DNA of 64,000 nucleotides from Acidobacteriota bacterium (GTDB lineage Bacteria > Acidobacteriota > Holophagae > Holophagales > Holophagaceae): the NCBI GenBank assembly GCA_021794095.1, contig JAJYRN010000005.1:124001-188000 (forward strand), written 5' to 3'. The notes beneath the pieces are model-generated. The model saw only the letters and a program-made list of their open reading frames with translations, had not been told where the DNA came from and ran no database searches. How positions within the stretch are numbered: the first letter of the stretch is position 1; every line of letters begins with the position of its first letter. This document shows, piece after piece, positions 16,175 through 36,476 of this stretch. Position numbers and translations under genes: made by a program.

Positions 16175-17132
16175 CCAAGGTCTTGGCCGCACGGCTGGAC
16201 TCCAGGAAATCGGCGCGGGCTTGCCGCACCTTGAGGTCATGCTGCCAGAAAAGGGCCGTGGTGCGCAGGAACCAGCCCAGCAGCCATGCGTTGAGCGCGG
16301 CTGCGCCCAGTTGGAGCAGGAAAAAGCCCCAGACGCGTCCGGAGGTGGCCCCTCCCAGACGCCACGCCAAAAACAGGATCAGAAACGACAGGAGGCCCCT
16401 CGCGGCGGTTCCGCCCACCACCAGCAGGGGCCATTGCACGGGGTGGTCCCAAAGCATCCGGGCATGCCAGCCCAGGTGGCGGCTGTAGGTCCCGTGCCGC
16501 GTGGCGCGTCCCATCCGGAGCAGCCACCATTGGAGGTTGAGGGCAGACACGGCGGCCATGACCACCAAGGGGTGGCCCACGAACGACACCCAGCCGAGGG
16601 CCTGTAGGCCTGAATGACCAATCCATCCGAGGAACGAGGACAGACACCAGGCCACAGCCAGGAGGGGGAGGAGCCCCACCAGCAGGGTATCCAGGGCGCC
16701 GAGCAGCCAGGGGCCCAGCTTGGCAGGCAGGGATGCCGTTTCCGCCTGCATGCGCCAGCCGCACCAGAGTACGATGACCAGGCCCAGGCCAAGGGTATGC
16801 ACCGTGGGCGAGTTCAGCGGGTGGTGCCGAAGGCCGCCATTCACCCAGAGTTCCCAGATATCCCGGGCGGTGATGCCCTCACCCCAGTGGCTAGGCAGGG
16901 CGCTCCAGCCCGCTGTCTTTTGGAGGAGCAGACTCCAGCTGAAGGCCGGCCCGGCCATGGCCAGGACCCAGCCGCCCAGCAGACCCCAACCCCAGGGTGT
17001 GAAGCCTCCAGGCAGGGCAGGGCGCAGGAATGTCCATGGCCCCCGGGGGGTCAGATCACTGGAAAGTTGGATGGTGGCAGGCGGGGCTTCAGGGTCCATG
17101 GGCATCCGTTTGAGCACTCCATGAAACCACAT
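16167..17132 (-). CDS. Multi-span membrane protein of unknown function
   Basis: 321 aa. The ATG at 17132 is chosen for its AGAAGGAG ribosome-binding site; internal ATGs at 17105 and 17099 are alternatives. About six hydrophobic segments are visible, for example WGLLGGWVLAMAGPAFSWSL, LGLGLVIVLWCGWRM, LLVGLLPLLAVAWCLSSFL and LLSFLILFLAWRLG, ending in a charged cytoplasmic tail (KVRQARADFLESSRAAKTL). I recognise no family motif. The 8-bp overlap with the 5'-nucleotidase C-domain gene puts it at the head of that operon, diverging from the trp leader. Confidence 0.7.
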   Translation of the reverse strand: MWFHGVLKRMPMDPEAPPATIQLSSDLTPRGPWTFLRPALPGGFTPWGWGLLGGWVLAMAGPAFSWSLLLQKTAGWSALPSHWGEGITARDIWELWVNGGLRHHPLNSPTVHTLGLGLVIVLWCGWRMQAETASLPAKLGPWLLGALDTLLVGLLPLLAVAWCLSSFLGWIGHSGLQALGWVSFVGHPLVVMAAVSALNLQWWLLRMGRATRHGTYSRHLGWHARMLWDHPVQWPLLVVGGTAARGLLSFLILFLAWRLGGATSGRVWGFFLLQLGAAALNAWLLGWFLRTTALFWQHDLKVRQARADFLESSRAAKTLDA

Positions 17133-17159
17133 CCCGCTCCTTCTGGCGCGACAGGCGGG

Positions 17160-17188
17160 TTGACAGAATGGGGTCCCCGCGGTTTCAT
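17160..17188 (+). promoter_or_regulatory. trp operon promoter
   Basis: A perfect -35 TTGACA (17160-17165), a 17-bp spacer and a -10 TTTCAT (17183-17188, 4 of 6 consensus bases). The expected transcription start falls at about 17195, next to the leader-peptide ATG at 17196, which would make the leader transcript leaderless. No operator-like palindrome overlaps it. Confidence 0.65.
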
Positions 17189-17195
17189 TCTGCCC

Positions 17196-17288
17196 ATGTC
17201 GCTGTCCTTCCCGCTCCCCCTCCGGGGCTTCCATTGCGAGGCCTGGTGGTGGTGTGGCGGCTCGGACGGCTCCCCTGGCGAGGCCTGA
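17196..17288 (+). CDS. trpL: trp leader peptide with three tandem Trp codons
   Basis: A 30-codon reading frame, MSLSFPLPLRGFHCEAWWWC and a short GGSDGSPGEA tail, ends at TGA 17286-17288. Codons 17-19 (17244-17252) are three consecutive TGG. Three adjacent Trp codons just upstream of an intrinsic terminator and trpE are the hallmark of transcription attenuation: a ribosome stalled on them when Trp-tRNA is scarce lets the antiterminator form. There is no clear Shine-Dalgarno, which fits initiation on a leaderless transcript from the promoter just upstream. Too short for ordinary gene callers. Confidence 0.85.
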   Translation: MSLSFPLPLRGFHCEAWWWCGGSDGSPGEA

Positions 17289-17339
17289 CGGCCCGCCCTT
17301 CCCGGACCCTCCGAGCCCGACCCCGTGGTCGGGCTTTTT
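17259..17339 (+). terminator. trp attenuator (antiterminator and intrinsic terminator)
   Basis: The terminator is a perfect 8-bp stem, GCCCGACC (17315-17322) with GGTCGGGC (17327-17334), a CCGT loop and five T's (17335-17339). An alternative 8-bp stem pairs GGCTCGGA (17259-17266) with TCCGAGCC (17310-17317), which takes three bases of the terminator left arm and would block it. A small GGCC/GGCC hairpin around the leader stop codon may add a pause signal. trpE begins 19 bp after the T-run. Confidence 0.8.
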
Positions 17340-17357
17340 CGTATATGGACAAACACC

Positions 17358-18743
17358 ATGTTCCTGCTTCGCCACCCCCTTGCGGCTGATCTCATCACGC
17401 CTTTGGCGGCCTATCTGGCCCTGCGGCCCCAGGGCGCAAGCCTCCTGCTGGAATCCAGCGACCAGGGCGAGCGGGTGGGACGCTACAGCTTCGTTCTGCT
17501 GGAGGAGGGCGAGGCCTTGACCCTGCCGCCCCCGGCGCAGGGCTGGGTCGAGGCCCTCCGCCGGTTCGCGGGCCCGGCTGCGGAGACCACCGCCTTCGAT
17601 CCCGACGCCGAACTGGAGCCCATCCGAGAGCCGTTGCCCCTCGGGGTAGGCTGCGCGGGCTACCTCGGCTTCGAAGCCCTGGGCGCCCAGGAGCCCTCCC
17701 TGCCGCAGCCCGCTGGGGACCGCCTCGGCCTTCCGGGCCTGTGGGTGCGCCGCTTTGATACGGCGCTCGTGTTCGACCACCTGCACCAGGTGGCGGAGCT
17801 TCAGACCCGGGATTTGGATCTGGAAGCCGGCTTCCAACGGCTTAGGGGCTTGCGAGAGTCCCTCCGCGCGGGCGTCCCTGCTCCCGAGACGGAGCGGGCC
17901 ATCCCCTCCATCCGCCCGCTGATTACCCGCGAAGCCTACGAAGGGATGGTCACCCAGGCGCAGGCGCGGATTCTCGATGGCGATGTCTACCAGCTGGTAC
18001 CCAGCCAGCGCTTCGAAGTGACGGATCCGCCGCCGCCCCTGGCCGCCTACCGCCGCCTGCGCCGCCTGAACCCGAGCCCCTACGCCTTCCTCCTGGAATG
18101 GGGCGGGTTCGCCCTGGTGGGCGCTTCGCCGGAGATGCTGGTGCGGGTGCAGAAGGGCGAGGCGGAAACCCTTCCCATCGCCGGGACCGTGCCCCGCGGG
18201 GCCACCGCCGAGGAGGACGCGGCGCGCTTCGAGGCGCTCAGGCGCAACCCCAAGGAGCTGGCGGAGCACCAGATGCTGGTGGATCTCGCCCGGAACGACC
18301 TGGGGCGGGTGGCCGTGCCCGGTGGCGTGCGGGTGGAGCGGCCCCTGTCCCTCCAGCGCACGAGCCACGTGCTGCACCTCACCACCACGGTGAAGGCGAC
18401 GCTGAAACCCGGTGTGGATGCCCTGGATGTGCTGGCCGCAGCCTTCCCCGCGGGCACGGTGAGCGGGGCGCCCAAACTGAGGGCCTGCCAGCGCATCGCG
18501 GAGATGGAGGGTGAGATCCGCGGGCCGTACGGCGGCGTATTGCTGCGCCTGGGGGATGACGGCGCCCTGGATACCGCCCTGATCCTGCGCACCGCAGTGT
18601 ATGCGAAGGGGAAGGCCTACCTCCAGGCCGGCGCGGGCGTGGTGCGGGCCTCGGATCCCGCTTCCGAGTACTTTGAAACCCTGCACAAACTCGGCGCCGT
18701 GGCCCAGGCCCTGGGTGTCCGGATCGAGGGGGGTGCCCAGTGA
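17358..18743 (+). CDS. trpE: Anthranilate synthase component I
   Basis: 461 aa from MFLLRHPLAADLITP; the ATG just follows the attenuator, and a GTG further upstream lies inside the terminator stem and is rejected. The ribosome-binding site is weak. The N-terminal part carries LLLESSDQG..VGRYSF, the LLES element that forms the tryptophan feedback site. The chorismate-binding domain follows with GDVYQLVPSQRF, LPIAGTVPRG, LVDLARNDLGRV and AFPAGTVSGAPKLRA. It makes anthranilate from chorismate with ammonia supplied by TrpG. First structural gene of trpEGDCFBA, so likely both attenuated and feedback-inhibited. Confidence 0.97.
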   Translation: MFLLRHPLAADLITPLAAYLALRPQGASLLLESSDQGERVGRYSFVLLEEGEALTLPPPAQGWVEALRRFAGPAAETTAFDPDAELEPIREPLPLGVGCAGYLGFEALGAQEPSLPQPAGDRLGLPGLWVRRFDTALVFDHLHQVAELQTRDLDLEAGFQRLRGLRESLRAGVPAPETERAIPSIRPLITREAYEGMVTQAQARILDGDVYQLVPSQRFEVTDPPPPLAAYRRLRRLNPSPYAFLLEWGGFALVGASPEMLVRVQKGEAETLPIAGTVPRGATAEEDAARFEALRRNPKELAEHQMLVDLARNDLGRVAVPGGVRVERPLSLQRTSHVLHLTTTVKATLKPGVDALDVLAAAFPAGTVSGAPKLRACQRIAEMEGEIRGPYGGVLLRLGDDGALDTALILRTAVYAKGKAYLQAGAGVVRASDPASEYFETLHKLGAVAQALGVRIEGGAQ

Positions 18744-20352: not shown

Positions 20353-21176
20353 CCCGCCTCCCGGATCCCGCCACCCTCGTCAAAGGCACCGGCCTGCCGT
20401 CCAGTGCGCCGCTACAGCGGGTGCTGGTGTCTGAACTAGAACGGATTCAGCAGCTCTGCGTAAATTCTCAAACGCCTGTCGTCACCACTGGAACGTTCGA
20501 AGCGGCGCTCCGTGAGTCGGTCCGGATCCGGGGCGGTGCGGTCATCGCCGAGTACAAACAGGCCTCGCCCACCCTCGGGCCCTTCGCCGCCGGGACGCCG
20601 CTGCTGCCTCAGCTCCAGGCCTACCGGGAGGGCGGTGCCGCGGCCTTTTCCATTCTGGCGGAACCCGCCTTCTTCTACGGCCACCCGGACCACCTGCGGC
20701 AGGCCGCAGCGTTCGGTGTGCCCCGCCTCTACAAAGGCTTCGTCCTGGCCGAGACCCAGCTGGATGAAGCCGCCGCCTGTGGGGCCCAGGCGGTGCTGCT
20801 CATCGCCCGGGTGCTGAAGGGCCACACCACCGCATTCGCAGAGGCAGCCCGAAGCCGCGGTTTGGAGCCCCTCGTGGAACTGCATGACCTCACCGAAGTC
20901 CCCTTCGCCCAGGCTGCCCAGAGTCGCCTGGTGGGCATCAACGCCCGTGACCTTTCCACCTTCACCCTCGGCGAGCCCTCCGCCGCGCCCCTGCGCCGGG
21001 CTTTCCCCGACGCCGTGCTGATCCGCGAATCGGGCCTGGCCACCCCGGGGGATGCCGTGGCCTCCCTGCAGGCGGGCTTCGACGCGGTACTCATGGGCGA
21101 AGCCCTGATGCGCAGCCCCGATCCCCGGGACTTCCTGGCCCGCGTGTTCTCCGGGCTGGCGCGGGAGGCCTCATGA
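20349..21176 (+). CDS. trpC: Indole-3-glycerol-phosphate synthase
   Basis: 275 aa, ATGA overlap with trpD. The (beta/alpha)8 enzyme shows IAEYKQASPTLGPF (catalytic Lys; family usually EVKRASPS), DEAAACGAQAVLLIARVL, VELHDLTE, LVGINARDLSTF and IRESGLATPGD. It closes the indole ring of carboxyphenylaminodeoxyribulose phosphate. Some motif positions differ from the textbook consensus (EYK for EVK, SPT for SPS), but the catalytic residues are in place. Confidence 0.93.
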   Translation: MTRLPDPATLVKGTGLPSSAPLQRVLVSELERIQQLCVNSQTPVVTTGTFEAALRESVRIRGGAVIAEYKQASPTLGPFAAGTPLLPQLQAYREGGAAAFSILAEPAFFYGHPDHLRQAAAFGVPRLYKGFVLAETQLDEAAACGAQAVLLIARVLKGHTTAFAEAARSRGLEPLVELHDLTEVPFAQAAQSRLVGINARDLSTFTLGEPSAAPLRRAFPDAVLIRESGLATPGDAVASLQAGFDAVLMGEALMRSPDPRDFLARVFSGLAREAS

Positions 21177-21793
21177 AGCTCCTCGCCAAGGTCTGCGGTC
21201 TCGCCCGCGCCGAAGATGCCGCCCAGGCCAACGAGGCAGGCGCGGATCTCCTGGGCTTCGTCTGCCATCCACCCAGCCCCAGGCATTGTCCCGACCTCGG
21301 CCTGGCCGCGCCCCGCCAGGACCGCGCCGTGCTCGTGATGGTGGCCGAATCGGCCGGGGCGATCCTTGCGACAGCCCGGGCCTTCGGCTTCCGCCGTGTC
21401 CAGCCCTATCTTCCGGTTGGGAGGCGGATTCGGGGCGCGGCCCTTCTCCGGGAAGCCGGTCTCTTCGTCCTCCTGCCCTGGCCTGACGAGCCGGACCAGC
21501 CCGACGTTCCGGCCGACCTCTACCTGTGGGAGGCCAGCCCGGATGCGACCGGCGTGGCCGGAGGGTCCGGGCAGGGCCATGCGATGGCCCACCCGCCTCC
21601 GGGCCCCTTCCTGCTGGCCGGAGGGCTCGACGGGGAGAACCTCGCCGGCCGCGCCTCCCGTCTGCCTGCAGCCGTCCGTGGCAACCTTCGCGGCTTCGAC
21701 GCCGCCAGCCGCCTAGAGGCCGCGCCGGGCCGAAAGGATTCCGCCAAGGTCGCCGCCTTCATCCATTCCGCCCACGCCCTGGAGCTGCCATGA
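21173..21793 (+). CDS. trpF: Phosphoribosylanthranilate isomerase
   Basis: 206 aa, ATGA overlap with trp[12 protein letters not shown] carries the catalytic Cys of the KxCG motif, and [15 protein letters not shown] near the C-terminus has the catalytic Asp and phosphate-binding loop. The QLHG strand found in most TrpF proteins is replaced by RVQPYLP, so this is a divergent member. It isomerises phosphoribosylanthranilate to the ribulose form. Position between trpC and trpB makes the call secure. Confidence 0.9.
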
Positions 21794-35750: not shown

Positions 35751-36476
35751 CTACACGATCCACTTCCGCAATTGGGCCTCGGCGAAAACCAAGTGGGCAT
35801 GCATGGCCTTTGAGGCGGTCTCAGCTGACCGGGCGCGGATCGCATCCAGAATCTCGGTGTGCTGATCAATGATCTTCTGGGCGTTCTCCGCGCCGGTCTG
35901 GTAGAGCTGGCGCCGGGCCACGGAGTTGGCTTTGGCGAACTCCTCCGAGACGGTCTTGAAGAGCTTGGTGAGCAGGCTGTTGTGGGTGGCCTCGGCCACG
36001 GCGTAGTGGAAGGCGGCGTCGAACTCCTCCCCCTTGGCCGGATCCTGCACGTTGAGCCGATCGCGCATGTTCTCCAGCATGGCCTCGATCTGGTCGAGTT
36101 CCTCCTGGGTGGCGCGCTGGGCTGCCAGACCCGCGGTGGCGGTCTCGAAGATCCGCCGCATCTCGAACATATCCAGGAGCGAGCTACGCTCCACCGCCAG
36201 GAACATGGCGAGGGGGCGGATGATGTTGTCGGTCTCGGTATCCCGGATGAAGGTGCCCTCACCCGGGCGGATGTCAATGATGCCCAGCATCTCCAGCGTC
36301 CGGATCGCTTCGCGGACGGAAGCACGGCTGACCTGGAACTGCTCTGCCATCTCCCGTTCGGCGAGGAGTTTGTCGCCCGGTTTCAGCTTCCCATCGCTGA
36401 GAAGCTGCTTGATCTGCTCCACGATCTCCTCATAGAGCCGCCGGGTCTTGATGGGCGTAAATTCCATGGAGTCCAT
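35751..36476 (-). CDS. lldR: FadR/LldR-type GntR-family transcriptional regulator
   Basis: 241 aa. N-terminal winged helix (KLKPGDKLLAEREMAEQF, VSRASVREAIRTLEMLGI, IDIRPGEGTFI) and C-terminal FCD helical effector domain with metal-binding His residues (FDAAFHYAVAEATHN, IDQHTEILDAI, AMHAHLVFAEAQL). The gene diverges from the lactate permease, and a GGTGGTC-A-GACCACC palindrome in between fits the TNGTNNNACNA operator of the PdhR/LldR/FadR group. It probably represses the lactate operon until lactate binds (inference by family and position). The symbol follows LldR by function. Confidence 0.88.
   Translation of the reverse strand: MDSMEFTPIKTRRLYEEIVEQIKQLLSDGKLKPGDKLLAEREMAEQFQVSRASVREAIRTLEMLGIIDIRPGEGTFIRDTETDNIIRPLAMFLAVERSSLLDMFEMRRIFETATAGLAAQRATQEELDQIEAMLENMRDRLNVQDPAKGEEFDAAFHYAVAEATHNSLLTKLFKTVSEEFAKANSVARRQLYQTGAENAQKIIDQHTEILDAIRARSAETASKAMHAHLVFAEAQLRKWIV

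Follow-up and report, generated by a model that had tools for sequence, protein, structure and literature searches.

A short reading frame with tandem Trp codons precedes the trp operon in a Holophagaceae genome whose species-named close relatives are Geothrix. The locus raises two questions: whether its transcript begins on the leader ATG itself, and how a trp attenuator might switch when the stop codon of the leader peptide lies beyond the antiterminator arm. The features are collected in Table 1, and the window is the whole stretch of DNA analysed, 64,000 nucleotides in length. A previous sequence-only reading had described TTGACA-17-TTTCAT, a leader ATG, three Trp codons and a terminator, and direct reading confirmed all of them. 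NCBIfam profile matches support trpE, trpG, trpD, trpF and trpA of the operon, and trpC and trpB were named from their translations without a profile search. The trpF gene (21173-21793) shows weak family matches, the best with 67 bits against a cut-off of 215, and TrpE of the window's clade (17358-18743) scores 397 bits against the TIGR00564 cut-off of 518. Compared with TrpE from three genera of the family (g3, g7 and g9), the window TrpE shows only about 40-44% identity, which suggests two TrpE lineages within Holophagaceae.

Table 1. Coordinates of the putative trp attenuator and trpE in the window. Genus leaders are the 45 distinct leaders of the window's genus.
Feature	Position	Strand	Basis
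trpE, 461 aa, first gene of trpE-G-D-C-F-B-A	17358-18743	+	ORF list and NCBIfam match
-35 element TTGACA	17160-17165	+	Read directly; 36-37 nt from the start codon in 45/45 genus leaders
-10 element TTTCAT, spacer 17 nt	17183-17188	+	TTTCAT or other TNNNAT ending 6-7 nt 5' of ATG in 45/45
Predicted transcription start (+1), at or adjoining the A of the leader ATG	17196	+	Estimated from -35/-10 spacing
Leader ORF, 30 aa, MSLSFPLPLRGFHCEAWWWCGGSDGSPGEA; ATG 17196-17198, stop TGA 17286-17288	17196-17288	+	Read directly; 30 codons in 44/45 genus leaders
Arm 1, GCTGTCC, nt +6 to +12; partner 17264-17270	17201-17207	+	Covariation, RNAalifold
Three tandem Trp codons TGG TGG TGG, within the loop of 1:2	17244-17252	+	Read directly; third TGG in 45/45
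Arm 2, coding (GGCTCGGACGGC); 17259-17269 with arm 3 (one mismatch), 17264-17270 with arm 1	17259-17270	+	Alignment pairing
Small hairpin GGCC-TGAC-GGCC, stop codon in loop	17282-17293	+	Nearly invariant in 45 leaders
Arm 3 (CCCTCCGAGCC), antiterminator partner of arm 2	17307-17317	+	98.4% of cells paired, compensatory changes
Intrinsic terminator 3:4, 17314-17322 with 17327-17335, then T-run	17314-17339	+	100% of cells paired

Conservation of the leader

Upstream regions were taken from TrpE searches of 77 Holophagaceae genomes together with named genome contigs. Leaders with identical upstream ends (the last 150 nt) were collapsed, and eight loci (L069-L076) outside the family or without a trpE start were dropped. 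Sixty leaders were retained, and 45 distinct leaders among them represent the window's genus. The leader frame is open in all 45 genus leaders, with 30 codons in 44 and 31 in one, and the other two frames hold stops in 16 and 9 of the 45, respectively. The third TGG is present in 45/45, the second in 37/45 and the first in 32/45, and the count of Trp codons upstream of trpE is two or three in every case. In codons 5-16 of the genus leaders, the third codon positions are no more variable than the others, and selection on the peptide at the protein level is not visible.

The terminator stem was called at 17313-17336 by a single-sequence scan, about 20 nt 5' of trpE. Terminator-like sites arise by chance at a mean of 0.5 in shuffled sequences, and thus one site in the leader stretch is unremarkable alone. 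The terminator pairing is complete in all 45 genus leaders. Between the terminator and trpE of six relatives (L007, L009, L013, L017, L058 and L093), a similar GC-rich insert of about 65-110 nt (GGTGGTTCCGCGCTTCGCG...) was seen by eye, and the insert is possibly a dispersed repeat.

A covariance model was built on 29 leaders, 22 of the window's genus and seven of sister genera, and these match by construction. Matches adjoining trpE were obtained in 46 of the 47 genomes of the genus (the missing genome is 58% complete), and in 1/1, 2/2 and 5/5 genomes of three sister genera (8/8 in all); weak matches occur elsewhere too. In a phylum sample of 247 genomes, matches outside the family were found in only three, the best at 4.2e-7.

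Near 17160-17340, the Rfam comparison gave nothing at the gathering score, T-box included, and only weak unrelated matches at E values up to 10. The E. coli-type model (Trp_leader, RF00513) has no match in 17100-17400, and it was rejected for the family, as it reached the cut-off in 0/77 genomes with weak matches in five. One weak match (G064), just 5' of a TrpE piece, corresponds to a Shine-Dalgarno (SD)-led WWW leader. Among 14 control genomes, RF00513 gave matches in three, E. coli among them, and one match was over the cut-off. The trpE of a Sphingomonas plasmid, one of the 535 plasmid records that matched, was also rejected as a comparison, since it overlaps the preceding gene and leaves no room for a leader.

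Promoter spacing and the start of the leader transcript

The start modes were compared using 63 leaders, that is, the 60 leaders plus L149, L153 and L159, which form two spacing groups. The short-spacing group (n = 53) consists of the window's genus and the sister genera g4, g5 and g6; the distance between TTGACA and the start codon is 35-39 nt throughout the group and 36-37 nt in 50 of its leaders. Within the genus, the distance is 36 nt in the window and five other leaders and 37 nt in 39, and a TNNNAT hexamer ends 6-7 nt 5' of the ATG in all 45 leaders; the gap between the TTTCAT of the window and its leader ATG is 7 nt. The other group (n = 10) consists of genera g3, g7, g8 and g9 and one genome of another acidobacterial family, and TTGACA was found in four of the ten, at 47-51 nt. 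A strict SD 4-mer is present in all ten of these leaders, in contrast to 2/53 in the short-spacing group. With a looser SD set the latter count becomes 5/53; the five matches belong to one clade and are located between the -10 element and the ATG, i.e. 5' of the predicted +1. The window's own leader has no SD sequence, and on this point the earlier reading holds. The extra 10-15 nt of the other group is about the room needed by an SD leader. Duplex energies computed with the 16S tail gave no separation between the 53 short-spacing leaders and the other ten.

The position of +1 relative to the -35 and -10 elements follows the usual promoter spacing. Because this spacing is fixed at 36-37 nt, +1 of the short-spacing group should be at or adjoining the A of the AUG. 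The start within about one base of the leader ATG, which had been proposed from the window alone, agrees with the 36-37 nt found in 50/53 leaders, as far as spacing can place a start. A leaderless transcript is the best reading of the window's leader, with its start predicted from the promoter spacing. A very short 5' leader of 1-5 nt, instead of a strictly leaderless transcript, is unlikely. The start is placed only within a base or two, and in two g5 leaders (L078 and L081) the TTGACA lies 38 and 39 nt from the ATG, which would suit such a leader, but the distance in 50 of the 53 short-spacing leaders sets +1 on or adjoining the A.

The single-sequence promoter scan found no consensus promoter at the leader, because the second base of TTTCAT is not A. 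By consensus standards this -10 element is poor, yet it is kept across the genus. The perfect pattern TTGACA-N16-18-TTTSAT occurs only once in the 3-Mb genome, at the trp leader, and perfect TTGACA-N16-18-TANNNT occurs ten times, against four for a control pattern. The non-consensus -10 element and the result of the scan might be taken to mean that the true promoter is located further upstream, and that ribosomes bind a non-SD site in a normal 5' untranslated region; additional upstream TTGAC sites occur in at least one relative (L092). We consider this highly improbable, as TTGACA and TNNNAT are found at a fixed distance in 45/45 genus leaders and the genome holds no second perfect TTGACA-N16-18-TTTSAT.

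In many relatives, CATNAAACCACA (17120-17132 in the window) is present 5' of the trp promoter, as seen by eye and uncounted. It is kept even where its distance to the -35 element varies, and its opposite strand reads GGTTTSAT, like the trp -10 element. CATNAAACCACA may be the -10 element of a divergent gene.

In 321 kb of the same genome, with 222 ORF-like genes, TANNNT ends 6 nt (five cases) or 7 nt (three cases) 5' of the first, second or third ATG. At 29 other distances the count averages 1.2 and never exceeds 3, and the excess at 6-7 nt is a weak signal. Before the same 222 ORF-like genes, GGAG shows a clear peak at 5-8 nt. Seen beside the GGAG peak, the weak TANNNT excess agrees with a minority of genes having leaderless starts. 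The eight ORF-like genes concerned, each with TANNNT ending 6-7 nt 5' of an early ATG, lie in L135-L147 and the window and look leaderless, for example that at 36467 of the window on the minus strand; the underlying gene calls are rough. Leaderless genes are predicted at 9.7-19.4% in three Acidobacteria genomes (PMC3160421).

On an RpoB tree with 19 rows, two changes between the leaderless and SD types are required, and one change suffices in 12% of the bootstrap trees; the resolution of the tree is poor. The two types track two TrpE groups, with at least 69% and about 40-44% identity to the window TrpE, respectively. Since the start types follow the TrpE groups, leader and trpE gene may have changed jointly.

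Pairing arms and the position of the stop codon

Pairing was examined in the alignment of the 45 genus leaders, with 500 shuffles as the control. In the antiterminator 2:3 (17259-17269 with 17307-17317), 98.4% of the cells are paired. The 17263:17313 pair is changed from CG to UA in 6/45 leaders and to UG in another 6/45, and C is never found with A. On the TrpE tree, which covers 42 of the 45 leaders, the UA state requires five changes, at least four of which are forced by well supported branches. The cell count and the covariation score of 2:3 are above those of all 500 shuffles. Double changes are found at one pair of 2:3, a number also reached in 450 of the 500 shuffles.

The 1:2 helix (nt +6 to +12 with 17264-17270) was predicted unprompted by RNAalifold. 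In this helix 98.1% of the cells are paired, and double changes are found at two pairs, corresponding to two events: GC was replaced by UA in L017, and UA by AU in the clade of L050 and L056. On each of the five measures, 1:2 exceeds all 500 shuffles. One of six slid controls of 1:2 equals the two double-change pairs, but only 28% of its cells are paired. Among 8385 alignment windows of 7 bp, 15 are at least 95% paired, and among these 15 double changes occur only in 1:2 and in registers of 2:3. The terminator 3:4 is silent on covariation because it is almost invariant. In the GGCC hairpin at the stop codon, three of the four pairs are kept in 45/45 leaders and the fourth in 43/45, a near-invariance that gives no covariation; an outer extension of this hairpin is unsupported beyond the four inner pairs in the 45 leaders. 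A mutually exclusive terminator and antiterminator are thus predicted, as pairing potential with conservation and covariation. The comparison among relatives proposed by the sequence-only reading, of the leader frame, the TGG runs and the pairing arms, bears out its attenuator: the frame and the third TGG are kept in all 45 leaders, and both pairings show compensated changes.

The arms give a nested layout. The codons of the 5' end form arm 1, and the loop that 1:2 closes contains the Trp codons; arm 2 is also part of the leader reading frame, and the loop closed by 2:3 contains the stop codon. Two distances given before need a small revision. Arm 2 does follow closely behind the Trp codons, but the distance from the last TGG to 17259 is 6 nt, not 7; the stop codon is indeed 3' of arm 2, but 19 nt after 17266, not 20. 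The geometry was compared in 24 sequences, consisting of 22 Holophagaceae leaders (five from the window's genus), L153 and E. coli. No terminator was callable by the script in L079, L082 and L159, and 19 Holophagaceae leaders remained. In all 19, SD-led or leaderless, the stop codon falls between the two antiterminator arms, 6-21 nt beyond arm 2 and 10-27 nt ahead of arm 3. For the E. coli control, the same approach recovered the known layout, with the stop codon 2 nt 5' of arm 2. The suspicion that the switching geometry differs from E. coli is therefore borne out by 19/19 callable Holophagaceae leaders. In the leader of another family (L153), the arms came out mixed. L153 itself (G094, reverse complement 370-477) has an SD-led leader peptide ending AWWWCICTSGGHGNAA and a terminator, and the ORF 3' of it is presumably trpB2, judging from its N-terminus.

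In E. coli trpL, the Trp codons are part of arm 1, and a 5' untranslated region precedes the leader ORF. The leader studied here resembles E. coli trpL (RF00513) in its leader ORF with tandem Trp codons, in the alternatives 1:2, 2:3 and 3:4, and in the intrinsic terminator before trpE. The stop codon of E. coli is 2 nt 5' of arm 2, whereas that of the window is in the 2:3 loop and arm 2 is coding; moreover, arm 1 is here the 5' end and no SD sequence is seen. The nested layout is different from that of E. coli. As the overall logic of 1:2, 2:3 and 3:4 is identical, the classic geometry, in which the Trp codons are inside arm 1 and the ribosome at the stop codon covers arm 2, was also considered. 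It has very little probability, because arm 1 is located at +6 to +12 and carries double changes, the stop codon is 3' of arm 2, and none of the 77 family genomes reached the RF00513 cut-off.

Proposed switching and comparison with known leaders

The folding of the 45 genus leaders was modeled with only the RNA 3' of the ribosome being folded. With no ribosome, the model gives 1:2 and 3:4 in 36/45 leaders and 2:3 in four; nine of the 45 lack the 1:2 and 3:4 fold in this state. When the RNA is exposed from 10 nt past the first Trp codon and arm 4 is unmade, a 2:3 helix of at least 8 bp is formed in 45/45, and with the ribosome at the last Trp codon in 37/45. With the ribosome at the stop codon, arm 2 is outside the folded part, and the absence of 2:3 is true by construction. 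When the ribosome is at the first Trp codon and arm 4 is made, the median difference between 2:3 and 3:4 is +0.3 kcal/mol, with a range of -6.6 to 4.3. The decision of the switch must be kinetic, because in this state the computed energies of 2:3 and 3:4 are almost the same.

The leader is probably a ribosome-mediated trp attenuator, whose transcript begins at the leader AUG and which is translated from this 5'-terminal AUG; we place the start site from the promoter spacing and derive the dynamics from the arms. Without timely initiation by a ribosome, arm 1, made of the 5'-terminal codons, would bind arm 2, and the terminator 3:4 would be formed. When Trp is short, a ribosome would wait on the Trp codons in the 1:2 loop and remove the inner 1:2 helices, and the freed arm 2 would pair with arm 3, so that trp is transcribed. 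When Trp is plentiful, the ribosome would cross arm 2 and move on to the stop codon; from there, within the 2:3 loop, it would hinder 2:3 in favour of the terminator. The size of the ribosome footprint and the steric argument are general knowledge. A ribosome at the stop codon would fill most of the 37 loop nucleotides of 2:3, and little RNA would be left for closure. The ribosome would act mainly by occupying loops, unlike that of E. coli, which covers arm 1 and then arm 2.

We tentatively propose that the fold is decided by a ribosome positioned in the 1:2 loop (at the Trp codons) or in the 2:3 loop (at the stop codon), and that arm 1, at +6 to +12 of a leaderless mRNA, also senses initiation on the 5'-terminal AUG before the polymerase completes arm 2, the family having leaderless and SD-led versions. 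A close rival, which we regard as rather unlikely, is that ribosomes elongating over arm 2 decide while the polymerase makes arms 3 and 4, and that it does not matter whether the 2:3 loop contains the stop codon. Arm 2 is coding and directly follows the Trp codons, and every elongating ribosome covers it, as masking in transit would have it. A stop codon of no importance might drift more, but it lies between arm 2 and arm 3 in 19/19 callable family leaders, SD-led or not. Loop occupancy and masking of arm 2 in transit may also act jointly.

Leaderless trp leaders are already known. In Sinorhizobium meliloti, the transcript of trpL (rnTrpL) starts with the trpL ATG, and trpE(G) is under attenuation (PMC7298713). 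The Geothrix-type leader is similar in its leaderless start, whereas the S. meliloti peptide has 14 aa and belongs to another phylum. TrpL1 of Streptomyces lividans is leaderless and has three Trp codons, seven codons from the last of these to the stop, and a putative terminator before trpE (PMC8079986). It resembles the window leader, but is from Actinobacteria, where classical trp attenuators have been described (PMC1262725). Leaderless attenuation in itself is thus not new. In the ilvB-II motif of Corynebacterium, the uORF extends over most of hairpin P1, whose loop contributes a part to the antiterminator (PMC10272879). This motif is like the window leader in that the ORF overlaps the switching parts, and unlike it in that branched-chain amino acids are concerned; the paper nowhere uses the word leaderless. 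No report of an attenuator in Geothrix was found in the open-licence literature. The nested layout was not recognised in the open-licence literature, figures aside, and may be in print, for example for Actinobacteria.

The unusual points are the nested geometry and the pair of SD-led and leaderless versions of one switch. The textbook principle of attenuation stands, and is overturned by neither point. If the proposed switching is true, attenuation can work by occupied loops, without the arm-covering layout of E. coli, and the nested layout is maintained across a bacterial family. Holophagaceae would then have leaderless and SD-led versions of one switch, in which the effect of the start mode on the timing between ribosome and polymerase can be compared.
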